Assembly (NCBI GenBank): GCA_012519655.1
Contig: JAAYPS010000102.1
Span: forward strand, 1-33,442
DNA length: 33,442 nucleotides
Direction: 5' to 3'
Source: Clostridiaceae bacterium
Lineage (GTDB): Bacteria > Bacillota > Clostridia > DSM-8532
Shown one piece after another: positions 3,577-20,874 of the stretch. Position 1 is the stretch's first letter. Every line of letters begins with the position of its first letter. The translations under genes and the position numbers were made by a program. The notes under the pieces are model-generated. The model searched no databases. It worked only from the letters and a program-made list of their open reading frames with translations, and was not told the origin of the DNA.

Positions 3577-4377
3577 TTAATCACATAAGATACCACATTT
3601 TAAAATTGCATTTGTTGGGCAAACCTCAACACATTTACCACAATTATCGCATTTAGAAGTATCAATGATTGCACGCATATTTACTATAGAAATAGCTTGC
3701 TGTGGGCATTCCTTCACGCATCTTCGGCATGCTATACATGCAACCTTGCAGTTCTTACGTGCAACGGCTCCCTTTTCCTCATTACTACATACCACTGCGT
3801 ATTGAGACCTTGCTGGAACCATTTTTATAATATCCTTAGGACATTCAGCGACACATTTTTCACATCCAGTACATTTTGATTCAATAACCTTGGCTAGTCC
3901 ATTTTCAACTACAATTGCATCGAAAGCACATACCTTTTCACAGCATCCCATACCAACACAACCATAAACGCAGGAAGAAGGACCACCTGCCATTGTGGAA
4001 ACTGATCGACAATCCAATATGCCATCATAGTCAAACTTTATTGTAACTTTATCCCATGTACCATTACACATAACACGAGCAACCATTTTCTCACTAGCCT
4101 TACCACCAGTACCCATAATTTCACTAAGGCTGTCCACTAAACCAGCACCGCCAACTGGGCATAATGTAATTGAAGCTCCGTCTACAACAGCCTGGGCATA
4201 ACCATCACAGCCACTATAGCCACAAGCACCGCAATTAGCACCCGGTAGAACATCTCGCACTGCCTCAATTCTTTCATCAGCTTTTACTTCATATTTAACT
4301 GAAACATAGGAAAGAATTATACCGAATATCAATCCCAAACCAGATACTATTGCGACAGGAATCAAAACTGTTTCCAT
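3577..4377 (-). CDS. rnfB: Rnf complex subunit B, multi-cluster ferredoxin
   Basis: 266 residues. RnfB accepts electrons from reduced ferredoxin and passes them into the membrane part of the Rnf Na+/H+-pumping ferredoxin:NAD oxidoreductase. An N-terminal membrane anchor (residues 3-24) is followed by the [4Fe-4S] motif with C49, C52, C57 and C73 (NCGACGYSGC). Several ferredoxin-like cysteine groups follow: a C-rich segment with CVGMGCCEKVC, then CTGCEKCVAECP, CIACRRCVKECP and CDNCGKCVEVCP. It is last in the operon order C-D-G-E-A-B, but 334 bp separate it from rnfA, while the other genes are tightly packed. The start has a good site (ggtgaggtg). It may have its own promoter. Confidence 0.95.
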   Translation of the reverse strand: METVLIPVAIVSGLGLIFGIILSYVSVKYEVKADERIEAVRDVLPGANCGACGYSGCDGYAQAVVDGASITLCPVGGAGLVDSLSEIMGTGGKASEKMVARVMCNGTWDKVTIKFDYDGILDCRSVSTMAGGPSSCVYGCVGMGCCEKVCAFDAIVVENGLAKVIESKCTGCEKCVAECPKDIIKMVPARSQYAVVCSNEEKGAVARKNCKVACIACRRCVKECPQQAISIVNMRAIIDTSKCDNCGKCVEVCPTNAILKCGILCD

Positions 4378-4711: not shown

Positions 4712-5293
4712 TTATAGGCCGAACAATCCCTGGAATCCAACAAATGCCACAGACACCAGAGCAGCTGCAATTAACGTAATGGGAAGGCCTTGAAATGCGA
4801 TAGGTATTTCACTTGTCTCAATTCTTTCCCTAACCCCAGAAAAAAGTACCATTGCCAATGTAAAACCCACTGCTGATGCAAAACCGAAAACCACTGCGTT
4901 AAGTAGGGTGTATTGTCTTTCCTGTATTAGCAATGCAGACCCTAAAACTGCGCAATTTGTTGTAATCAATGGCAAATAAATACCTAATGCGCTGTATAAT
5001 GTAGGCAGAACCTTCTTCAAAACAGTCTCTACAAATTGCACTAATGCTGCAATTACAAGAATAAATACAATTGTTTGAAGATAGGTAAGTCCATAACTTT
5101 CAAGTAAATACTTGTTCGCTGCCCATGTTACAGCCGATGATAACGTGATTACAAAAACCACAGCGCCACCCATTCCAAGGGCAGTTGAAGTTTTTTTGGA
5201 TACACCCAAAAATGGGCAGATACCTAAAAACTTAGATAGAACAAAATTCTCAACGAAAATCGCAGAAATAGCAATCAGAATAAGTTCTTTCAC
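4712..5293 (-). CDS. rnfA: Rnf complex subunit A, membrane protein
   Basis: 193 residues with six predicted membrane helices, the standard size. RnfA and RnfE form an inverted-topology pair in the membrane core. Conserved cysteines in LSKFLGICPFLG (residue ~26) and TTNCAVLGSAL (residue ~112) are the positions that in known Rnf/Nqr structures hold an intramembrane [2Fe-2S] cluster. The start is GTG, overlapping the TGA of rnfE in GTGA, with ggaggtg upstream, so it is translationally coupled. Confidence 0.95.
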   Translation of the reverse strand: MKELILIAISAIFVENFVLSKFLGICPFLGVSKKTSTALGMGGAVVFVITLSSAVTWAANKYLLESYGLTYLQTIVFILVIAALVQFVETVLKKVLPTLYSALGIYLPLITTNCAVLGSALLIQERQYTLLNAVVFGFASAVGFTLAMVLFSGVRERIETSEIPIAFQGLPITLIAAALVSVAFVGFQGLFGL

Positions 5294-5976
5294 GCCTTGT
5301 CACCTCCATTGTCATTTGCCACGCATCCCGCACAGCTCATACCACAGCCCGCAGCGATTTCTTTATTCCTTATATTAAGAGTAGAGAACTTTTGAACTGC
5401 TGCAACTACAAAGCCGTAGACAAGAAAGCCACCTGCCGGCAAAACCATAATAACTGCTGGATCAAACAAGTTCTTAGTAAGGGTAATTCCAAACCATGTA
5501 CCCGCACCGAGTATTTCACGAATAGAACCCATTATCAATAGAGCTATTGTAAATCCACCGCCCATTCCCAGGGCATCGAGTATTGACATACCAACAGTGT
5601 TTTTGCAGGCAAACATTTCAGCTCTGGCAAGAATAATACAGTTTACAACAATAAGAGGGATATAAATACCAAGTTCCTTATATATATCTGGAAGATAAGC
5701 ATGCAGAAGCATTTCAACTATTGTTGTAAAACCAGCAATTACTGTTATAAACACCGGTATTCTGACTTTGTCCGGAACTATTTTTCGAATCAGTGAAATA
5801 ACAATGTTAGAGCCCAGCAAAACGAATGTAGCGGCTATTCCCATGCCAATTCCATTTTTAGCCATTGTTGTAACAGCAAGGGACGGACATGTGCCTAATA
5901 CTAGCTTTAAGACTGGATTTTCCTTCATAAAACCATTTGTCAGCACCTTGAATACATTTCTTTTCTTGTCTGTCAT
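5290..5976 (-). CDS. rnfE: Rnf complex subunit E, membrane protein
   Basis: 228 residues, six membrane helices, partner of RnfA. It has the matching cysteine motifs LVLGTCPSLAV (residue ~30) and IVVNCIILARAE (residue ~113) for the shared intramembrane iron-sulfur centre. The C-terminal tail carries extra cysteines (CGMSCAGCVAND), which lie on a soluble end and are not part of the core fold. The ATG is one base after the rnfG stop and is preceded by ggggggaa. Confidence 0.95.
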   Translation of the reverse strand: MTDKKRNVFKVLTNGFMKENPVLKLVLGTCPSLAVTTMAKNGIGMGIAATFVLLGSNIVISLIRKIVPDKVRIPVFITVIAGFTTIVEMLLHAYLPDIYKELGIYIPLIVVNCIILARAEMFACKNTVGMSILDALGMGGGFTIALLIMGSIREILGAGTWFGITLTKNLFDPAVIMVLPAGGFLVYGFVVAAVQKFSTLNIRNKEIAAGCGMSCAGCVANDNGGDKA

Positions 5977-5977
5977 A

Positions 5978-6541
5978 TTAATTCCCCCCTGTTAACATAT
6001 TCACTGTATCCAAAGCAGCTTGAACACCATCAACTACAGCATTGGCTGATTTTGTTGCTCCGCTAATGCCCTGAATTTCATTTGCTGCTTTTTTATTGCT
6101 TACAATTGTTAAAGTATCATGGACAGTTGCTTCATTAAACTGGCCTAAAAACTCTGGCTCAGTCACCTTTAAGCCCAGTCCAGGTGTTTCATTATTGTCG
6201 CCGATAATTATACTTGTCACCTTGCCTTCAATATCCACACCCACTGTTAAACTCATTGCTCCGCCATAACCATTTGTTACAACATCCAATACATAACCTG
6301 CGAGTATATCCTTACTGTAGCCTTCGTATATGCCAACTACTTTATCGGATGCGCCTTCTATTTCTATCTCTACAAAACTGTCAGCTTCTCTTAGTACTTC
6401 TTTTCTGAATTGTACTTGTTCTTCCATGGTTCTTTGAGAAATAATATCTTGAGTTATATCATTAACAAAAGCCAAAGAACCCGCCACCACTGCACAAACC
6501 AAGGCAAGTACCAAGGTTGGCTTTAAAATACTATTCCACAT
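5978..6541 (-). CDS. rnfG: Rnf complex subunit G, covalent-FMN protein
   Basis: 187 residues from the ATG at 6541, chosen over an upstream in-frame start because ggaggtg sits 6-7 bp before it. It then overlaps the rnfD end by 11 bp. One N-terminal membrane helix (residues 4-26) is followed by an extracytoplasmic FMN-binding domain. The flavinylation motif GISGATKSA has the acceptor Thr at about residue 163. FMN would be attached there by ApbE, which is not encoded in this window. RnfG carries electrons between the intramembrane iron-sulfur centre and the other flavin subunit. Confidence 0.95.
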   Translation of the reverse strand: MWNSILKPTLVLALVCAVVAGSLAFVNDITQDIISQRTMEEQVQFRKEVLREADSFVEIEIEGASDKVVGIYEGYSKDILAGYVLDVVTNGYGGAMSLTVGVDIEGKVTSIIIGDNNETPGLGLKVTEPEFLGQFNEATVHDTLTIVSNKKAANEIQGISGATKSANAVVDGVQAALDTVNMLTGGN

Positions 6542-7505
6542 GTTTTTCACCTCCAAAGGCAACTGGTACTGTGTACCTGTCAATCATGGGTGTGACAATA
6601 TTCATGAGTAAAATAGCAAATGATACCCCTTCTGCCATACTTCCATAGAGCCTGAACAAAACTGTTAGAGCACCACAGCCAATCGCATATATAATCCTGC
6701 CTTTGCGTGTCATAGGACATGTTGCATAGTCTGTAGCCATAAACACAGCACCTATTAACAGTCCACCCGATAGAACATGGTATAAAGGATCACCAGTAAA
6801 CACGCCTCCAGGTCCTAAAATCCATGTAGAAAGTGCCACTGTTCCAACAAAAAAAGTAGGAATATGCCATGATATTACTCTTCTGAATAATAAATATGCC
6901 AAACCCAGCAGTATTGCCAATGCTGAGGTTTCTCCTATACAGCCGGGTACATTACCTAAAAACATATCCAGATAAGAAAATGTACTAGCCCCACCCTCTT
7001 TTAACACGCCAAGAGGTGTTGCGGTAGAAACAGCGTCAACTGTAGCGGTAGAAACAGCATCCACAAAAAGTGGGTCTGTCCATTCTGTCATCCACCTTGC
7101 CCATGAAACAGTAAGGATGGCCCTTGCTCCTAAAGCAGGATTCATAAAGTTTTGTCCTAATCCGCCAAATAACTGCTTAATAAGACCTGTTGCGATTACA
7201 GCCCCAACAACTGCTATCCATATGGGTATTGATGGAGGTAGGTTAAGTGCTAATAAAAGACCTGTTACGGCTGCACTTAAATCTGAAATTGTCTGCCCTC
7301 TCCCCAACCCTTTTCGCATAATATATTCTGTTAGAACCGATGCAGCAACGGTCGCAACTACAACCAGTGCAGAACGCATTCCAAAAAATATAATACCTGC
7401 AATAGTAGCAGGAATTAATGCAATTATTACATCCAGCATAATTCTGCGGGTAGAGACATTATCTCTTAAATGCGGAGATGAACATACAAACAACCTATTT
7501 TCCAA
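6531..7505 (-). CDS. rnfD: Rnf complex subunit D, ion-translocating flavoprotein with duplicated FMN motif
   Basis: 324 residues, a polytopic membrane protein of normal length and homolog of NqrB. RnfD carries covalent FMN and is thought to be part of the ion channel. Core motifs are visible (GGLGQNFMNPALGARA, residues 114-129). The flavinylation site DAVSTATPL (Thr163) is preceded immediately by a second copy, DAVSTAT (Thr155), created by a 24-bp tandem duplication. The start is TTG at 7505, supported by gaggtg 7 bp upstream. The gap to rnfC is 45 bp. Confidence 0.95.
   Translation of the reverse strand: MENRLFVCSSPHLRDNVSTRRIMLDVIIALIPATIAGIIFFGMRSALVVVATVAASVLTEYIMRKGLGRGQTISDLSAAVTGLLLALNLPPSIPIWIAVVGAVIATGLIKQLFGGLGQNFMNPALGARAILTVSWARWMTEWTDPLFVDAVSTATVDAVSTATPLGVLKEGGASTFSYLDMFLGNVPGCIGETSALAILLGLAYLLFRRVISWHIPTFFVGTVALSTWILGPGGVFTGDPLYHVLSGGLLIGAVFMATDYATCPMTRKGRIIYAIGCGALTVLFRLYGSMAEGVSFAILLMNIVTPMIDRYTVPVAFGGEKHVE
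7021..7064. repeat. 24-bp in-frame tandem duplication in rnfD
   Basis: Two copies of gcggtagaaacagc(g/a)tc(a/c)ac start at 7021 and 7045, with 18 of 20 leading bases identical. On the coding strand this duplicates eight residues (VDAVSTAT), including the covalent FMN attachment motif. Confidence 0.9.
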
Positions 7506-7550: not shown

Positions 7551-8864
7551 TTACACCCTATTAACCTTTCGCTTAACAGCATCTTTACCAATACGGATGG
7601 ATTGTACAAGATACCTTTTCGAAGGGCATGAGTATGAACAGCTACCGCATTCGATACAGTCAAGGATATGATATCTGTCCAGATCTTCGAACTTATCTGC
7701 CATTACAAGACGATTCAGTTCTAATGGTAATAAGTTCATTGGACAAGCCTGAATACATTTACCACATCTAATGCACGGCCATTCCTCAGGCAGATCCCCT
7801 TGCTTCTTATCAAAAGCCAATATTGCATTGGTATTCTTGATAACAGAGGTTTCAAGTGAATATTGAGCAATTCCCATCATAGGACCACCCATTAGCACTT
7901 TATAAGGCTGTGACTTAAATCCTCCACAAAAGTCAAATAAATCCTTCAAAGATGTTCCAATAGGCACACTTACATTTTGTGGATTACTTACAACAGAGCC
8001 ATCCACTGTCACGCGCCTTTGCACGAGTGGCATACCAGTCTTCAAATATTGCGCTATATACGAAACAGTGTTTACATTTAGCACAATACACCCCACATCA
8101 GCAGGAAGTTTACCAGATAGAACTGTTCTGCCTGTAGTTGCATATATCAGCATTTTCTCTGCACCTTGAGGATATCTTGAGGATAGGGATTTGATAGAAA
8201 TCCTTTTGTCGCTCTTAGAAGTTTCAGCAAGTAATTTTATTGCGTCAGGCTTATTATCTTCAATACCAATAATAGCGTTATTGATGTTAAGATAATCCAA
8301 TACAAGCTGAATGCCTTCTATTATACCAGTAGGGTTTTCAATCATCTCCCTGTAATCCGATGTAATATAGGGTTCACATTCAGCACCGTTGATAATTAGA
8401 CTGTCAACGTCTTTATCCTTAGGAGGATTGAGCTTAACATGTGTTGGAAAACCCGCGCCGCCCAGACCTACAAGACCTGAGTTTCGTATTGCCTTGAGAA
8501 AATCTTCCCTATTATTTACTTCGGGCGGTGAAATGCCCTCGTAAACTTCTTGTTTACCGTCGGTTTGTATTTCAATGGACATAACCAGCTTTCCACTCGC
8601 ATATAGCATAGGTTCTACGCGGGTTATAGTACCTGAAACACTGGAGTGAATTGGAGAAGATACATATGCATCACTATTGCCTATTATTTGTCCTACCTTC
8701 ACCGTATCACCTTTTTTTACGGTTGGAGTACAGGGCGCTCCAATATGCTGAACCATTGGGATTATTACCTTTTCAGGGGTACCTAAAACAGACGTTTCAG
8801 ATTTTAAGGTATTTTTATGGTGCGGCGTGGATACGCCACCACGAAATACCCTTTTAAAAGCCAT
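7551..8864 (-). CDS. rnfC: Rnf complex subunit C, NAD(H)-reacting flavo-iron-sulfur protein
   Basis: 437 residues from the ATG at 8864, which has gaggtg 6 bp upstream; a GTG three codons earlier overlaps that site and is less likely. RnfC is the peripheral subunit that reduces NAD+. It has an N-terminal barrel/sandwich region, then the NADH/FMN fold like NuoF (GLVGLGGAGFPTHVK and NGAECEPYITSDYREM). Two C-terminal [4Fe-4S] motifs follow (CIRCGKCIQACP and CIECGSCSYSCP). It is the first gene of the rnf operon. Confidence 0.95.
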   Translation of the reverse strand: MAFKRVFRGGVSTPHHKNTLKSETSVLGTPEKVIIPMVQHIGAPCTPTVKKGDTVKVGQIIGNSDAYVSSPIHSSVSGTITRVEPMLYASGKLVMSIEIQTDGKQEVYEGISPPEVNNREDFLKAIRNSGLVGLGGAGFPTHVKLNPPKDKDVDSLIINGAECEPYITSDYREMIENPTGIIEGIQLVLDYLNINNAIIGIEDNKPDAIKLLAETSKSDKRISIKSLSSRYPQGAEKMLIYATTGRTVLSGKLPADVGCIVLNVNTVSYIAQYLKTGMPLVQRRVTVDGSVVSNPQNVSVPIGTSLKDLFDFCGGFKSQPYKVLMGGPMMGIAQYSLETSVIKNTNAILAFDKKQGDLPEEWPCIRCGKCIQACPMNLLPLELNRLVMADKFEDLDRYHILDCIECGSCSYSCPSKRYLVQSIRIGKDAVKRKVNRV

Positions 8865-9027
8865 AAATATCACCTCACTTTATTTTGACATATTTAGGGT
8901 TGTTTATTAAGAAAAAAATATTTATTATAGAGTAATAATAACACATGAACAGAACTTTGTGAATACGATAAATGTTTTTTGTATACAAAATAAAAGTGCG
9001 TGAAATGTTTATATTAAGCGCCCTACC
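8865..9027 (-). promoter_or_regulatory. spacer upstream of rnfC, possible promoter
   Basis: This 163-bp AT-rich gap lies between the hydrogenase-related operon and rnf on the same strand. A perfect minus-strand TATAAT lies at 8924-8929, but its -35 (ctgttc at 17 bp) is poor. I see no terminator hairpin here, so the two operons could be transcribed together. Confidence 0.35.
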
Positions 9028-10395
9028 CTATTTTTCCATTGCCGAGAAATCGAGCTCAAAGCTTGAAATAATTACCGGTATATCATTTATTTGTATACCC
9101 CTTAAACATTGGCTTAAGAAAGGAAATTTCAAAGAAGAGGAGTTTCTTATTTTTATATCTGTTACAACTCCACTCTCAAGGCTTAGATAAATAACCAATT
9201 CTCCGTATGCTTCCTTTTCTCGAACAACTGTATATCCATTTCGATTTATGTTGATGGATGCTCTAACATCGCCATGGGGTAGCATATCTATGGCTTGATC
9301 TATGAGGGACAAAGATAGCAAACAATCCTCAAATATAAGCATTGTACGTGTGAAACAGTTGCTTTCTTCTTTACAGGAAACTTCATAGCTTAACTTTGAA
9401 TATGGTAATTTTGATAGCCTACGGATATTTTCATAAACACCTGCTGCCCGAGCTAAACGACCTGTCGACACTCTAGCTGTTTTGCTGTCCACCTTGCCTA
9501 GGCTACTCAATCTATTAACTATTGAGTGTGTACTTTCCCATGTTCTCCTAATATCAGACAGCCCTTGAACCATCTCTTGAATAATAACATTTAGCTGAAA
9601 TATTGCTTCATTTGATACATCTTCTTTCACACCACCGAGCACTAAAATATCTTTTAATTGAGGTTCTTCCGTGGCATAGGCTACAGCTTCATTGTATAGT
9701 TTAATTAATCCTATCAAGTCTGAGTAATCTGATAAAAGACCAAGGCATTTTGTTAAATGACTTAAGCTATAAAGATTTGCCTTTAAAAAACTCAACTCAT
9801 TGAAAATGAGCCTCAGGAAATTAGCCCTTTCTGGTACGTTAACGTTGTTTATTTTCTCAACTGCATGCAAAAAGGCCAAACCAATTGAAAACCCATTGAC
9901 TGAGGAAAGACGTTCTAACATCTCTAACGCTTCAGATACCTTCTTACCTATACATAGTCTTTCTACACCCCGATAATTATATCCCGTTTCCACATTTATT
10001 TGATCTATGATCTCATCGGAGATTGTAAAGCGAAACAAAACAGGCTCTGGTAGTAAGGGATGAAAAGGTCCCCACTCTACAGCTGCATGGAAGTCTTTTT
10101 TCTCTACATTATCTTCTTTATGCAAATCGAACCTAATTGGGTAACAATCTGCAATCTCTTTTTGCATTTGAGCACCTTCTAGATAGGCTATAGTAATTGA
10201 AGGTAGGATGCTGTGTTCGGGTACTTCTATATCAATTGTGTCAATGTTTCCGTCTTTTTCGAAAAAATAATTTATTTCCACATAACCTTGTTTCTTATTT
10301 GCTTTTATGAGAAGAAGATTATAGCCCGTATGCTTATAAGCAAACCATTTGCCTATTAATTCTCCATTTTTTTGTTCTGTTAAAAATATGCTCAC
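9028..10395 (-). CDS. NiFe-hydrogenase-like/NuoCD-like large subunit lacking NiFe ligands
   Basis: 455 residues. The N-terminal ~95 residues resemble the NuoC (30-kDa) domain and the rest the NuoD/group 4 hydrogenase large subunit, the order seen in HycE/HyfG. Recognisable motifs are WGPFHPLLPEP (108-118) and GYNYRGVERL (138-147). Where a hydrogenase has ERICGIC, this protein has ERLSSVN (161-167). Where the C-terminus should read DPCxSCxxR, it has ELDFSAMEK (447-455). All four metal-binding Cys are thus Ser164, Asn167, Asp449 and Ala452, so it cannot hold a NiFe site. It matches the idea of energy-converting hydrogenase-related (Ehr) complexes. The start is GTG, with aggag upstream. Confidence 0.82.
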   Translation of the reverse strand: MSIFLTEQKNGELIGKWFAYKHTGYNLLLIKANKKQGYVEINYFFEKDGNIDTIDIEVPEHSILPSITIAYLEGAQMQKEIADCYPIRFDLHKEDNVEKKDFHAAVEWGPFHPLLPEPVLFRFTISDEIIDQINVETGYNYRGVERLCIGKKVSEALEMLERLSSVNGFSIGLAFLHAVEKINNVNVPERANFLRLIFNELSFLKANLYSLSHLTKCLGLLSDYSDLIGLIKLYNEAVAYATEEPQLKDILVLGGVKEDVSNEAIFQLNVIIQEMVQGLSDIRRTWESTHSIVNRLSSLGKVDSKTARVSTGRLARAAGVYENIRRLSKLPYSKLSYEVSCKEESNCFTRTMLIFEDCLLSLSLIDQAIDMLPHGDVRASININRNGYTVVREKEAYGELVIYLSLESGVVTDIKIRNSSSLKFPFLSQCLRGIQINDIPVIISSFELDFSAMEK

Positions 10396-10416
10396 AAACT
10401 TCTCCTGCCTTTACTA

Positions 10417-10869
10417 TTAGTTTTTATCCCTTTCGCCTTTTGCCTGTTTATTTTTTACGTTTTCCATTGCCCTTACAATGGTCTCAAGCATTTCTGTCCC
10501 ATCGGGCGTGCAACCACGTATCCACGAAGTAACAGGCAACACATCTTCAACAATATATAACTGATTTCCCTGCCTGCGAAAAAGACTACCAGAACATGCG
10601 CAAGCTCCTGCGGCAACAACGGCTTTTGGGGAAGGGATTTTCTCATAAATCTGCATAATTTCTTCTTTTGATTTCTCATTAATGCAACCAGAAATCAGCA
10701 GACAATCTGCATGTTTCGGGTTTCCTGTCAATGTAATACCCTTTATCGTGTTTTGCTCTGACAAAGCCATGGATAATGCATCAACACATCCCCTGCATCC
10801 ACCTGCTTGTATGACAAAAACCGATATGGATCGAGTTCTAATTTTGTTTAACAAGTCCGCAAAGCTCAA
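10417..10869 (-). CDS. NuoB-like/hydrogenase small subunit with intact Fe-S cysteines
   Basis: About 150 residues from a TTG at 10869 chosen because aaaggag lies 8 bp upstream; a GTG at 10902 is the alternative but lacks a good site. This is the 20-kDa PSST/NuoB fold carrying the proximal [4Fe-4S] cluster. All ligands appear present: GGCRGC, GACACSG and IRGCTPDG, four or five Cys in the expected order. It would sit under the large subunit and pass electrons towards its (Ni-free) cavity. The gene lies between the membrane subunit (upstream) and the large subunit (21-bp gap). Confidence 0.85.
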   Translation of the reverse strand: MSFADLLNKIRTRSISVFVIQAGGCRGCVDALSMALSEQNTIKGITLTGNPKHADCLLISGCINEKSKEEIMQIYEKIPSPKAVVAAGACACSGSLFRRQGNQLYIVEDVLPVTSWIRGCTPDGTEMLETIVRAMENVKNKQAKGERDKN

Positions 10870-10909
10870 TAAAAGCACTCCTTTAACAAATCCGTTACCC
10901 ACCGCATGT

Positions 10910-11758
10910 TTATCGCAAAACGTAAAGAGAAATAAAATTCAGCAAAGACACTCCACCTGCCCATATCCAGGAATACTTAGCCGATTGCTTCCAGTTTACC
11001 TTTGCAACAAATCCATCCCACAATAAAAACAAAAGATATAATATCATAATAACCAAAAATGAAACCCATTCATTAAGCGGTAAAAAGATAGATAAAATTT
11101 TAATCCATATACCTATTTCAATCCAATGTGTCATCTGTACTAATGCCAGGCTCCAACCACTATAAGGTGTAAAAAGGGCTGCATCCAAAACAGATAATTC
11201 ATCTCCAGAAATGCCAAAATTAAAATACCCTATATTACCTTTAATCAAAAGTATTACGAATAGCGATATAAATGTAAATACAAGGCTTATAAAAACGCCA
11301 TTACTTTTCGAATATCCAGAGAGCACACCAAGATTAAGCGCACCTGTTGTTTTGTATATTGTTGTGGCTGCAACCATTGATGTAAACAACAAAACAACAA
11401 ACCTGGAAACTGCTCTTTGTGCACAGATCTTCCCAGAAAAAGTGTTGGCACTATATGCTCCAATAATGATGAACAATTCCATCATGGACAATACCGAAAC
11501 AACAAAAAGAAAATTAAATCCTGCCACCGTCATATATAGCGCTATAAGCGAGAATACGAAGGCTCCAATGGAAAAAAAGCAAGCAAAATAATTAATTGTT
11601 CCGTCCTTCTTTTCGAAAAGTTTAATAATACGGTATATGGGTTGAAGTATGTACGATCTACCCTGCCCACGCATCATAGTCTTAAAGTAATTTTCGACAA
11701 TATATTCAACAGGAACTATCAAAATGATGGCGAAAAACCAGATAATTACCTCAAACAT
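10910..11758 (-). CDS. NuoH/HyfC-like membrane subunit
   Basis: 282 residues from the ATG at 11758 (gggggtgg 7 bp upstream), overlapping the preceding gene by 13 bp. It has about eight membrane helices. This family links the iron-sulfur module to the membrane. The first cytoplasmic loop is recognisable (RGQGRSYILQPIYRIIKLFE). The later acidic loop, which in NuoH/HycD is rich in Glu (PFD-PEAE-E...EYSG), reads DELSVLDAALFTPYSG, so several of the usual carboxylates are missing. The family assignment is from motifs and neighbours; sequence divergence is strong. Confidence 0.75.
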   Translation of the reverse strand: MFEVIIWFFAIILIVPVEYIVENYFKTMMRGQGRSYILQPIYRIIKLFEKKDGTINYFACFFSIGAFVFSLIALYMTVAGFNFLFVVSVLSMMELFIIIGAYSANTFSGKICAQRAVSRFVVLLFTSMVAATTIYKTTGALNLGVLSGYSKSNGVFISLVFTFISLFVILLIKGNIGYFNFGISGDELSVLDAALFTPYSGWSLALVQMTHWIEIGIWIKILSIFLPLNEWVSFLVIMILYLLFLLWDGFVAKVNWKQSAKYSWIWAGGVSLLNFISLYVLR

Positions 11759-13083
11759 GATAAAGCCACCCCCAAAATAAGAGCTGCGGTTGTAATCCAT
11801 CCAAGCCTTATAATAAGTTTAAAATTCACCCTGAACGGAAAGAAAGTTGATGGTAAATATTTCTCATCGGCCTCTTGTGGTAATTTTGCCTGTACAAACA
11901 AATATGACACCCACTCAATAATAAAGGCTGCAATTAAAACAATACCTGAAATAACAATTAAAAGAGATAGCGGATTACTATAGAGAAAATCAACATTTGA
12001 CTGATAATCTTTAAAGGACGTTGCCACTCCCAGACCCGCTATACACATAATGGTGGTATTGAGGCTATACTTGTTTTGCTTGTAAATCAGGGCATAATAA
12101 GCACCAGCAAAGACTAATATGCTTCCATATAGAACAAAAAGCGGGATTAATCCTCTATGTAAGTTTTGAAATAATGGTTGAAACTTAAGCAATACTCCAT
12201 AGGGCATAATTATTGAAACAATAACTAAATACATTCCCGTTAGGCTTGATATGGGTATATTCTCAAAAAAGTTATGACGCAGTAAATAGTATTCGGGAAT
12301 CAATAACCCCATTATTATAAGCGTCATAAAGATAATCACAGCCGTCAACTCTGATGCTTGTCCAAAGCCCACCGAAAAGTTTTGCATAGCTAACGAACCT
12401 GTACCTTTGTATGCAATAATATTAGAAGCTAAAAATAGTGTTAGTGCTGCTTGCTGTACATAGGGAACAAATCTCATCCTTTGGTCATGCAAGCTTTCAC
12501 ATGAGTCCACCAAGAAATAAGTAGCGAGGTATTGGAACTGCCAGAACATAAATAACCCCGTCATACTTTTTGCTGACATTAGCCCGGCAAATGAGGAAAG
12601 TAATAACAAAAACCCTGTTATAAACCGCCTTTTTTGTTTGTTAGATGCATTACCGCACTTTTTCCTATAACAGTAAGCTATAAAAGGCATAAAGGTAATA
12701 ATGATAAAACCCCCAGAGAGTGTCAAAAGAGTCTCCTGACGGTTAAGAGATAGAAACTGGCTTGGTTCAGCAGGTGCAAATGATATTTCAAAAACAATGA
12801 GCATCAATACCTGAAAAATAGTTAATATTGAAATAAAGTAATGCTTGTCCCGTATTGAATAAATAAATATCGAAAAGACAGTTAATAGTGATAAGAATTT
12901 CCAAAGAAGGGCTGGAAAATTGATAATCGAAATATTGGGAAATAAATATAGGACGATGGAGCAAATCAGAAAAATAACACTTGATATTATAAGAGAACTA
13001 TAAAAAGCCTTTCCTCTGGTTAATAATACAATAAGCAATAAGATTAGAGGTATAAATACCAAACCCAATACCATTAACTCCAT
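11746..13083 (-). CDS. divergent antiporter-like (NuoL/M/N, HyfB-type) membrane subunit
   Basis: 445 residues with about 13-14 membrane helices; first gene of the operon (ATG with aaagga upstream). It aligns by eye with Mrp/Nuo proton-translocating subunits around helix 5 (GLFMFWQFQYLATYFLV, residues 176-192), where the essential Glu of FWE is Gln182. It also aligns around helices 7-8 (MGLLIPEYYLLRHN, then IPISSLTG), where the conserved Lys before the Pro is Met258 and the following His is missing. Proton pumping by the usual route therefore looks impaired. Product assignment is by motif shape and operon context. Confidence 0.72.
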   Translation of the reverse strand: MELMVLGLVFIPLILLLIVLLTRGKAFYSSLIISSVIFLICSIVLYLFPNISIINFPALLWKFLSLLTVFSIFIYSIRDKHYFISILTIFQVLMLIVFEISFAPAEPSQFLSLNRQETLLTLSGGFIIITFMPFIAYCYRKKCGNASNKQKRRFITGFLLLLSSFAGLMSAKSMTGLFMFWQFQYLATYFLVDSCESLHDQRMRFVPYVQQAALTLFLASNIIAYKGTGSLAMQNFSVGFGQASELTAVIIFMTLIIMGLLIPEYYLLRHNFFENIPISSLTGMYLVIVSIIMPYGVLLKFQPLFQNLHRGLIPLFVLYGSILVFAGAYYALIYKQNKYSLNTTIMCIAGLGVATSFKDYQSNVDFLYSNPLSLLIVISGIVLIAAFIIEWVSYLFVQAKLPQEADEKYLPSTFFPFRVNFKLIIRLGWITTAALILGVALSCLR

Positions 13084-13331: not shown

Positions 13332-14417
13332 TTATACTCCATTACGTTGCTCTGCAGCACGAAAAGCTATAAGCGCCGCTGCTACTGCAGCATTAAGTGA
13401 GTTAATTTTACCATACATTGGTATTGATAAATGAATGTCGCAATTCTCTCTCACCAAACGACTTATACCCTCGCCCTCGCTTCCAATTACAACAGCTAAT
13501 GGACTCTTGTAGTCATACTTCACATAATCAGTATCTCCCGCCATATCAGCACCAGCAATCCATAAACCAGTATCTTTTAACTCCTGTATGGTCCTACTTA
13601 GATTTGTTACTCTTGCGATGGGCATGTGCTCAGCAGCTCCTGCCGCAACCTTCGCAACTACAGCTGTAAGACCAACCGAGCGCCTCTTCGGTAGGATAAT
13701 ACCGTGAACACCTGCGCATTCAGCTGTTCTGATTATTGAGCCAAGGTTATTAGGATCGGTTATCCCGTCCAAAATAAACATAAACGGGGGCTGGCCCATA
13801 TCCTCTGCCCTTTTTAGTATATCTTCAACTTCTACATATGCATATGGTGCTACCTCTGCGATAACCCCTTGATGATTTCGGGTTTCAGACATAGTATCAA
13901 GTTTGCTTTTGTCCAAATATGAAACAACGATACCTTTTTCCCTTGCAATAGCATAAATCCTAGCTAATGCTTGATCCTTAGAATCCTTATCAAGATATAC
14001 TCTATTTATCTGACGCTCTGCACTGAGGGCTTCAAAGACTGTGTTTTTGCCTTCAATCTTGCCCGAATCCTCGTATTCGGAGTCTTGGCTCTCATATAAA
14101 TATTTATTATCATTAATATTTACATTGTCAGTCCTTCTATAATCATTTCTTCTTCTGCTATTACCTCTGTTATCAGCCCTGTTGTAATCATTTCTCCTTC
14201 TGCCGCTATTACCTCTGTTATCAGCCCTGTCGTAATCATTTCTCCTTCTGCCACTATCTTTGTTATTAGTCTTTTTATAATCATCTCGGCCTCTGCTGCT
14301 TTCTTTACTATCAGCCCTTTTATAATCATCACGGCCTCTGCTGCTATCTTTGCTATCAGCCCTTTTATAATCCTTCCTTCTCATACTATCCCTCTTACTA
14401 CCACTCTTATTGTCCAT
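13332..14417 (-). CDS. rlmB: TrmH/SpoU-family 23S rRNA 2'-O-methyltransferase (RlmB-like) with repetitive N-terminal tail
   Basis: 361 residues from the ATG at 14417 (aagga 5 bp upstream), overlapping mrnC by 11 bp. The C-terminal ~250 residues are a normal RlmB: a substrate-binding domain (GKNTVFEALSAERQINRVYL), then the knotted SpoU methyltransferase with NLGSIIRTAECAGVHGIILP, IVIGSEGEGISRLV-like text and SIPMYGKINSLNAAVAAAL. RlmB methylates the ribose of G2251 in the ribosomal P loop, using SAM. The first ~110 residues are an added hydrophilic Arg/Asp/Asn/Ser tail made of six ~15-residue repeats, probably disordered and RNA-binding. Confidence 0.93.
   Translation of the reverse strand: MDNKSGSKRDSMRRKDYKRADSKDSSRGRDDYKRADSKESSRGRDDYKKTNNKDSGRRRNDYDRADNRGNSGRRRNDYNRADNRGNSRRRNDYRRTDNVNINDNKYLYESQDSEYEDSGKIEGKNTVFEALSAERQINRVYLDKDSKDQALARIYAIAREKGIVVSYLDKSKLDTMSETRNHQGVIAEVAPYAYVEVEDILKRAEDMGQPPFMFILDGITDPNNLGSIIRTAECAGVHGIILPKRRSVGLTAVVAKVAAGAAEHMPIARVTNLSRTIQELKDTGLWIAGADMAGDTDYVKYDYKSPLAVVIGSEGEGISRLVRENCDIHLSIPMYGKINSLNAAVAAALIAFRAAEQRNGV
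14124..14381. repeat. six 45-bp coding repeats in the rlmB N-terminus
   Basis: Residues 13-98 of the protein are six units of the pattern (R/G)R(K/D/N)DY(K/D/N)RADS/NK/R-(D/E/G)-S-(S/G)R, 15 residues each, one unit with 16. The unit length is a multiple of three, so expansion or contraction keeps the frame. Confidence 0.9.
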
Positions 14418-14829
14418 TTGGTCCTTCCCCTTCCTCAATGACTTTTGCAGCCATATCTAAGATCTCCAATAGACGTTCTTTCCTTCCAATAAGGTATAAA
14501 TATCCAAGCACTGCTTCAAATGCCGTTGACCGTCGATAATCTATAACATCAGCATGTTTTGGAATTGTAGCAGATTTTGCATTTCTCCCTCGACGGAATA
14601 CGGTTTTTTCCTCATCGGTAAACTTATCATACACCACTTCAACAATCCTGCTCTGTGCAGATGCTTTAACATATCTTGTAGCTTTGACATGCATCTTATG
14701 AGCAGATTCTCTTTTCTTTATGGCAAGCCGGCTTCTGATAAACAAATCAAATACTGAATCTCCCACAAAAGCTAAGACCAATGGCGACAATTGATTAACT
14801 TGTATATTATCTAATTTTCTAAATTCCAT
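14407..14829 (-). CDS. mrnC: Mini-ribonuclease III
   Basis: 140 residues from the ATG at 14829. It is an RNase III catalytic domain without a dsRNA-binding domain; in Bacillus it matures 23S rRNA. The signature is present: LAFVGDSVFDLFIR with the catalytic Asp, and STAFEAVLGYLYL with the catalytic Glu, about 75 residues apart. The neighbouring rlmB also modifies 23S rRNA, and the pair is a conserved neighbourhood in Firmicutes, often after cysS, which is absent here. An upstream in-frame TTG lies on top of the aaggg site and is unlikely to be the start. Confidence 0.95.
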   Translation of the reverse strand: MEFRKLDNIQVNQLSPLVLAFVGDSVFDLFIRSRLAIKKRESAHKMHVKATRYVKASAQSRIVEVVYDKFTDEEKTVFRRGRNAKSATIPKHADVIDYRRSTAFEAVLGYLYLIGRKERLLEILDMAAKVIEEGEGPNGQ

Positions 14830-18642: not shown

Positions 18643-20874
18643 ATGAAAGTATTACATTTAATTGGTGGTGGAGATGAAGGTGGAGCAAAAAGCCATGTAC
18701 TATCTCTGGTACAACAACTTGGTAATCATATACATGTCAAACTTATAAGCCTTCGTCCAGGCCCTTTTGCCGATGATGCAAAAAAAATGGGCATTGACGT
18801 GGAAGTAATACATTCGGGTAATATATTTAAAGACATAAATAGCGTCAGAAGAATTGCTTATAATGGAGGCTATGACATTCTTCATACCCATGGGGCAAAA
18901 GCAAATATGATTGGTGTTTTTGTAAAACACCAGGTAAAAATACCCGTGGTGTCCACAGTACATAGTGACTATAGGTTGGATTACCTAAACAGCCTTTTAA
19001 AAATGTATACTTTTGGGCTTATAAATACAGTTGCACTCAGATTTATAGACTACTATATTGCTGTTTCATATAATTTTAAGGAAATGCTTATAAAAAGAAA
19101 TTTCCCACCCCAGAGGATATATACCGTATACAATGGTATATCTTTTGAGACACCAATAGAATTAATTCCTCAAGAAGCATTTGCAAAAAAATATGGATTT
19201 TCTATTGAGCAAGGCGATGTTTTTATTGGCATACTTGCAAGGCTTGATCCTGTAAAAGGACATACTGTTTTTCTTGATGCAGCTGCCAAGGTGATTGAAA
19301 AATGCCCAAATGCTAAGTTTTTAATAGGTGGCCCTGGCGACGAATTAAAACCAACACTTGAAAAAAGAGCTCAAAAGCTTGGTATTTCCGATAATGTGTT
19401 TTTTCTTGGTATGGTAACCGAGCCTTATTCATTTTTCGACTTAATAGATATAAATGTTCTGGCCTCATATAGCGAGAGTTTTCCCTATGTTATTCTTGAA
19501 GGTGCCAGACTTAAAAAAGCAACAGTATCCAGCAGAGTTGGAGGCCTTGAGGATTTGTTTGAACATGGCAAAAACGGTTATCTTTATACTCCCGGCGATA
19601 GCAATGCTCTTGCAAATCACTTAATTGAGCTTATTCTGGATGAAGATAAAAGGCTGGCTTTTGGCGAAAACCTTTATACTACCGCCAGCGAGAACTTCTC
19701 TCTTCAGTCAATGACAGCTACCCAAATAGGTATATATGATAAAATATGTACACAAGTTGCAAAAACAAAAAAAGACGGCAAAGCCTACGATATCGCTATC
19801 TTGGGGTATTATGGATATCGTAATAGCGGCGATGATGCCATATTAAAATCCATTATAGATCGTATACGACTTAAAAATGATGAGTTATCCATTGCTGTAT
19901 TCTCAAATACACCCTACGAAACTCGCACACAATACAAGGTAGATTCTGTACACCGCTTTAATCTGCTAGAAGTGCCAAAAGTATTATCAAAAACCCGACT
20001 ATTCATTGCAGGCGGTGGCACATTAATTCAAGATGGTACAAGCACCAGATCTCTTTGGTATTATCTATATATGTTGCAACTTGCACGGAAGAAAGGAGCA
20101 AGTACAGTTCTTCTTGCAAATGGCTTAGGACCTCTTACAAAAAATAAAAACCGAAAAGCAGCATCAAAGATACTAAACAACATGGATGCCATAACTTTAA
20201 GGGACTCAAACGCATATGATGAGTTATTATCATTAAACGTAACAAAACCAATTACAAAAATTGCAGCAGATCCTGCTTTAGCACTTGAAAATAGAGATAG
20301 TACTTTAGGTCTTAATATTCTAAAAAGTGAGGGAATACCTACTGATAAGAAAATTATTGCACTATGTCCCCGTAAATGGAAAAAGGTTAAAAATGCAGAC
20401 AAAATCCTTGCGTTCATAGCCGATAAAATTGTAACTGACTTTAATGCTATACCTGTTTTTATAGCAATGCAGCACCCTAATGATGTATATTTTTCAAAAA
20501 AAGTTCTTCGCAGTATGAAACAAAAAGGTTATGTTCTTACCAGAAGATATAATGTTGACGAAACACTTTCCATTCTATCAAACACAGATATGATTGTAGG
20601 CATGCGTTTGCATTCGCTCATATATGCTGCAAATCTTGGTGTGCCAATGGTTGGGCTTGCTTATGAGCAAAAAGTGGGCTTTTTCATGGACTCTATAAAC
20701 CAACCTTATGTGGAATGGAACGAAAAATTTAATATGAATGATCTAATTGCAAATTTACATGATGTATGGACAAACTTAGAAGGTGTGAAAGAAGAACTGA
20801 AAAAGATAAAACCCATTCTTAAAAAGAAGGTAACGGATGCAATAGACCTTACATTGTCGTTATTGTCAGACTAA
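18643..20874 (+). CDS. csaB: fused GT4 glycosyltransferase and CsaB polysaccharide pyruvyltransferase
   Basis: 743 residues in two enzymes. Residues 1-370 are a GT4 (GT-B fold) glycosyltransferase: LIGGGDEGGAKSHV at the N-terminus, GILARLDPVKGH, and the E-x7-E motif ESFPYVILE with VGGLEDLFEHGKNG. Residues ~380-735 are CsaB: ILGYYGYRNSGDDAIL, FIAGGGTLIQD, ADPALAL, and a C-terminal MRLHSLIYAANLGVPMVGL. CsaB adds a ketal pyruvate to cell-wall polymer, making the ligand for SLH domains of S-layer and cellulosome-anchoring proteins. CsaB is usually a separate ~370-residue protein. The start is firm (aaaggag before the ATG). The last codons lie in a tandem repeat. Confidence 0.93.
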   Translation: MKVLHLIGGGDEGGAKSHVLSLVQQLGNHIHVKLISLRPGPFADDAKKMGIDVEVIHSGNIFKDINSVRRIAYNGGYDILHTHGAKANMIGVFVKHQVKIPVVSTVHSDYRLDYLNSLLKMYTFGLINTVALRFIDYYIAVSYNFKEMLIKRNFPPQRIYTVYNGISFETPIELIPQEAFAKKYGFSIEQGDVFIGILARLDPVKGHTVFLDAAAKVIEKCPNAKFLIGGPGDELKPTLEKRAQKLGISDNVFFLGMVTEPYSFFDLIDINVLASYSESFPYVILEGARLKKATVSSRVGGLEDLFEHGKNGYLYTPGDSNALANHLIELILDEDKRLAFGENLYTTASENFSLQSMTATQIGIYDKICTQVAKTKKDGKAYDIAILGYYGYRNSGDDAILKSIIDRIRLKNDELSIAVFSNTPYETRTQYKVDSVHRFNLLEVPKVLSKTRLFIAGGGTLIQDGTSTRSLWYYLYMLQLARKKGASTVLLANGLGPLTKNKNRKAASKILNNMDAITLRDSNAYDELLSLNVTKPITKIAADPALALENRDSTLGLNILKSEGIPTDKKIIALCPRKWKKVKNADKILAFIADKIVTDFNAIPVFIAMQHPNDVYFSKKVLRSMKQKGYVLTRRYNVDETLSILSNTDMIVGMRLHSLIYAANLGVPMVGLAYEQKVGFFMDSINQPYVEWNEKFNMNDLIANLHDVWTNLEGVKEELKKIKPILKKKVTDAIDLTLSLLSD

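Follow-up and report, generated by a model that had tools for sequence, protein, structure and literature searches.

Energy-converting hydrogenase-related (Ehr) complexes are defined as relatives of the group-4 hydrogenases that lack the NiFe ligands (PMC6349859, PMC10284858), and such ligand-less relatives are suspected to be redox enzymes (PMC6349859). Published Ehr complexes are described as lying near group 4f and as suspected charge translocators. Among the ligand-bearing systems, the Ech operons of other Clostridia encode EchA (about 635 aa), EchB (290), EchC (150), EchD (110-145), EchE (359) and EchF (about 120), and usually continue with genes that, judged by size, fit hydrogenase maturation genes. 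The Hyd-3 formate hydrogenlyase (FHL, HycCDEFG) has a NiFe site in HycE, an E-channel in HycD, and the HycF subunit; in E. coli, the residues of the E-channel are required for H2 production (PMC9474812). A “dimeric Ni-Fe hydrogenase” co-located with Rnf has been described in C. stercorarium, where the proteome contained only some of the components (PMC4102724). That remark was the only literature found on such a module beside Rnf.

The window, i.e. the whole stretch of DNA that was analysed, comprises 33,442 nucleotides from a Clostridiaceae bacterium. On its reverse strand, positions 9028-13083 hold a module that the first-pass annotation had read as antiporter-, NuoH-, NuoB- and NuoCD-like genes, and all four are open reading frames at the coordinates given below, three of them with Pfam matches. 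The NuoCD-like large subunit (9028..10395) matches PF00346 (E 3e-20), the NuoB-like, EchC-like small subunit (10417..10902) matches PF01058 (E 2e-18), and the NuoH-like, EchB-like membrane subunit (10910..11800, with a more likely start at M15, about 11758) matches PF00146 (E 2e-8). The best structural match of the NuoCD-like subunit is HycE (Foldseek E 7e-21). The fourth gene, an EchA/NuoL-like antiporter subunit of 445 aa (11746..13083), has no match in Pfam, NCBIfam or the PDB sequences. Its identity comes from its position and from the phmmer match of a full-length ortholog to EchA (E 5e-11); the fold of its low-confidence model (pLDDT 58) matches MrpD/NuoL weakly (E 0.02). In genera g4 and g6, the protein is 605-637 aa long, and in the window's genus an internal loss of ~170 residues has shortened it. 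In another genome (G007, L024:9243-11075), the antiporter-like gene lies in two ORFs of 515 aa and 81 aa, through fission, a frameshift or an assembly error. As had been remarked of the missing ferredoxin subunit, the module has no NuoI/EchF gene. No Rfam matches occur in the window.

The anatomy of the module is that of Ech. Its genes stand in the order A-B-C-[D+E fused], with rnfC at the place of EchF, and the N-terminal part of the large-subunit profile (A1) matches a separate EchD ORF directly upstream of EchE in many genomes, which supports the large subunit being an EchD-EchE fusion. The proximal-cluster cysteines are likewise shared with Ech and, in genera g4 and g6, so are the sizes of the subunits. 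Profile scores of the module clade are 728-770 bits, against at most 227 bits for all other proteins, the best of which are Ech, in 33 genomes from the order, 391 from the class and 398 from the phylum, sets that partly overlap. Neither the class sample nor the phylum sample contained a module outside its family.

In the large-subunit tree, the module proteins form a single clade (100/100) with a long stem. The exact sister group of this clade was sought in the same tree, and the AU test allows Ech (p 0.28), a 530-aa group (p 0.36) and NuoD (p 0.20) alike, rejecting none of them. The four ligand-less 530-aa proteins were taken as Ehr, the tree containing no named Ehr reference; the ML tree sets the module apart from them, and grouping them with it gives an AU p of 0.36. 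The Ehr resemblance suggested earlier holds in a broad sense, because Ehr is defined as group-4 relatives without NiFe ligands: both share the group-4/complex I architecture and lack these ligands. It does not extend to anatomy, which profile score and gene order assign to Ech, nor did tree placement, beyond the single module clade, group the module with the proteins sampled as Ehr, although the AU test rejects neither placement. The module is also smaller than Ehr and lacks pump residues. Judged by its encoded proteins, it is an Ech-anatomy complex and a ligand-less relative of group-4 hydrogenases and complex I.

Unlike Ech, the module combines a fused EchD and EchE with the loss of EchF, of the hyp genes and of all four NiFe ligands. 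An alignment of the 11 module large subunits with their counterparts from Ech of other Clostridia shows all four ligand cysteines in 19/19 Ech proteins and none of the four in any module protein. The window's large subunit has S164, N167, D449 and A452 instead, with exactly the residue numbers reported before; across the 11 module proteins, position 164 is always Ser, 167 is Asn in nine and Ser in two, 449 is always Asp, and 452 is Ala, Gly or Ser (4, 6 and 1). The Ech motifs ERxCGICS and DPCISCTER become ERxSxxNG and [LM]D[LF]S[AGS]MEK, so that SxMEK forms the C-terminus where Ech ends. Cysteine ligands at shifted positions would have spoken against this loss; a CxxC was sought anywhere in the 11 large subunits and found in none, which rules them out. 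The missing maturation genes were also confirmed: the module has no hyp genes, and HypD is found neither in the window's own genome nor, counting that one, in 10 of the 11 module genomes.

These losses bear directly on the reading of the module as a working NiFe hydrogenase, which homology and the apparent annotation in C. stercorarium (PMC4102724) would favour. With 0/4 ligand cysteines in 11/11 proteins and HypD so widely absent, that reading has practically no chance of being right, and a role as H2 enzyme is essentially excluded. The C. stercorarium complex is probably the same ligand-less module under a wrong name, an identity that we infer. If so, a biofuel clostridium has been credited in print with a “dimeric Ni-Fe hydrogenase” that is no hydrogenase. 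Two further observations concern other hydrogenase-like genes. Besides its module, the sole module genome with HypD (G012) contains another group-4 hydrogenase-like operon, one that does bear the cysteines (L032, G012:C181). A very divergent hydrogenase-like large subunit (L135, G059:C171:1-1500), on the longest branch of the tree, has both CxxC pairs (RICGKCS, GICIPC) and no DPC motif.

As the first-pass annotation had stated, the small subunit retains its [4Fe-4S] cysteines: C36, C39, C101 and C131 are invariant in 11/11 genomes. Two further cysteines set the module apart from Ech, namely C73 of the small subunit, which is Ser or Gly in all Ech and never Cys, and C148 of the large subunit, which is Val, Thr or Ile in Ech. 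C103 of the small subunit, also invariant, was ruled out as module-specific, since it is Cys in 10/19 Ech. Although the module large subunits share only 41-57% identity with the window's, S164, D449, C148 and the small-subunit C73 are invariant in 11/11. This invariance, together with the suspicion that ligand-less group-4 relatives are redox enzymes (PMC6349859), speaks for an Ehr-type oxidoreductase acting on its own, whose NiFe cavity would have been rebuilt for another small substrate (S164, D449 and C148, with C73 close to the cluster) and whose adjacency to rnf would be historical. Such a rebuilt catalytic site is the main rival to an accessory role at Rnf. It is nonetheless unlikely: an identity of 41-57% by itself leaves many invariant columns, the module lacks an electron-input subunit (EchF) of its own, coupling residues and a catalytic partner gene, and its linkage to rnf is strict (11/11).

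The residues associated with proton translocation are lost as well. The E-channel acids of FHL are taken here as equivalents of EchB-like residues, of which E120, E128, H187, H188 and H190-E192 have essentially disappeared from the module, along with the DR..ARMQGR and RE...YEP motifs and the KSPFD.S.SHH.HQE loop. In the antiporter-like subunit, the TM5 glutamate that is invariant in Ech (E191) is Gln in 10/10 proteins (Gln182 in the window), K301 of Ech is Pro in 10/10, and K270 and K385 are retained in none; in the window, the key lysine positions are M258 and P294, and a further one falls in the deletion. The Mrp-type subunits of Ehr are suspected of translocating charge, a trait that the TM5 Gln (10/10) and the lost lysines deny to the module. 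The redox-driven pump that had been suggested is not supported, because the E-channel-type acids and the antiporter Glu and Lys residues are gone too, and canonical proton pumping by the Ech/complex I route is unlikely on these alignments.

A small quinone or proton module of complex I type was considered in the same context, as the NuoD and NuoB folds and the profile matches would suit it. Alignment of the large subunit to 7zm7_C places P116 and S165 at what we take to be the quinone His and Tyr ligand positions of NDUFS2. The tandem cysteines for N2 in complex I NuoB are absent, the small subunit having CxxC instead. With the proton residues lost besides, such a module is exceedingly improbable.

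The neighbour of the module is the Rnf complex (RnfABCDEG), which is not homologous to it. The genes rnfC (7551..8873), rnfD (6531..7505), rnfG (5978..6583), rnfE (5290..5976), rnfA (4712..5293) and rnfB (3577..4377) lie on the same reverse strand. The module is directly upstream of rnfCDGEAB in 11/11 module genomes, which belong to four genera of one family, and within contig reach the order mrnC-rlmB-[A-B-C-DE]-rnfCDGEAB is the same in all of them. The survey of gene neighbourhoods therefore returned a constant linkage to rnf. Genomes of the same family without the module have rnf, with different genes upstream of rnfC. In the RnfC tree, the 11 proteins from module genomes form one clade (SH-aLRT 99), and genomes with and without the module fall on the two sides of one branch. 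This single clade and the shared gene order indicate one origin and vertical inheritance with rnf. Adaptation of RnfC to the module was looked for, and only 5 fixed differences separate genomes with and without it, so no obvious docking adaptation is seen.

The module is under purifying selection. Its genes have dN/dS values of 0.09-0.28 in four pairs of close genomes, which rules out a pseudogene; the rnf genes have 0.05-0.16. Constraint within the module is weakest on the antiporter-like subunit (0.16-0.28), which has internal deletions in one genus. A slowly decaying Ech relict without present role would account for the many conserved Ech residues lost, the shrunken antiporter subunit and the split antiporter ORF in G007. 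It is already contradicted by purifying selection, however, and the four genes are open in nearly all of the 11 genomes and four genera and carry invariant new residues, which makes a relict very improbable. Since the module is under selection, it may well serve Rnf in a role other than that of a hydrogenase.

The gap between the module and rnfC contains a conserved extended -10 promoter-like site, TTCACA-17-TATTAT with TG (8935..8963, reverse strand), whose TTCACA box is found in 11/11 loci, its spacing from the stop codon before it being almost constant. Just upstream is a conserved operator-like motif, TTGTATACAAAAAACA in the window (8973..8988, reverse strand); the motif TTGTATACAAWAWACA is present there in 11/11 module genomes and in 0/19 rnf loci without the module. 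Exactly two copies of TTGTATACAAWAWACA occur in 10 of the 11 genomes and three in the remaining one (G017), and the second conserved copy is upstream of pta, as with TTGTATACAAAAAACA at G000:C18:11106-11121 (L152:4107). The motif's core palindrome is presumably GntR-like. It may define a conserved two-target regulon of rnfC and pta. No terminator-like site was seen on the same strand in the gap, and a stem-loop there was no better than in shuffles. Because the promoter-like site and TTGTATACAAWAWACA precede rnfC, rnf is probably transcribed from a separate promoter that is tuned jointly with acetate formation. As for the operon described in the first-pass annotation, the four-gene set stands; on this arrangement of sites, it probably does not simply form a single operon with rnf.

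With the NiFe and proton residues lost, the module would produce no H2 and very probably perform no pumping of the Ech or complex I type. Without NiFe, quinone site and pump residues, the module is left with one predicted [4Fe-4S] cluster, borne by an Ech skeleton that is anchored in the membrane. Its only constant functional neighbour is Rnf, which has ferredoxin domains in RnfB and RnfC. For these reasons we tentatively favour, at somewhat less than an even chance, an Ech-derived pseudo-enzyme selected as an accessory of the neighbouring Rnf. The EchA- and EchB-like proteins would fix the EchC/DE-like arm to the membrane next to Rnf. In the absence of EchF, the EchC-like cluster predicted from its cysteines, with Cys73 nearby, could exchange electrons with ferredoxin or with the ferredoxin domains of RnfB or RnfC. 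The arm would then act as a docking, relay or redox-sensing subunit without a product of its own; the assembly of the cluster, a physical association with Rnf and any regulatory effect are equally suppositions of this model. Counting against it, sister genera have Rnf without the module, rnf appears to have a conserved promoter of its own, and RnfC differs so little.

A purely structural or assembly role, as Rnf scaffold or biogenesis factor with a structural cluster and no electron transfer, would explain why the folds are kept while catalytic and proton residues are lost, and why the antiporter-like subunit is so weakly constrained. Yet fully invariant cluster cysteines plus one new cysteine are more than a scaffold requires, and sister genera keep rnf without the module; this role is accordingly rather unlikely. 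Going further than an accessory, Rnf in this family might be joined in a supercomplex by a second redox arm that derives from Ech, its NiFe cavity rebuilt to a new site (S164, D449 and C148, with C73 near the cluster). We regard this as improbable; if true, it would be a previously unrecognised way to feed, gate or branch electrons at Rnf.

The module is a natural form of the complex I/Ech scaffold, an enzyme minus catalysis and minus pump, that is still selected, and it links this scaffold with Rnf, an energy-converting machine of another type. Should the module bind Rnf, it would show what use is left in the complex I fold after loss of its chemistry and pumping. We know of no earlier case of an accessory arm on Rnf, and the module would then be the first.

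Two other genes of the window are unusual in architecture. Upstream of the module, an RlmB-like methyltransferase (13332-14438, reverse strand) has a repetitive N-terminal extension of ~100 aa rich in Arg, Asp and Ser, the proteins of relatives measuring 265-283 aa. On the forward strand, positions 18643-20874 encode a fusion of a GT4 glycosyltransferase with a CsaB-type polysaccharide pyruvyl transferase, which is kept in relatives.
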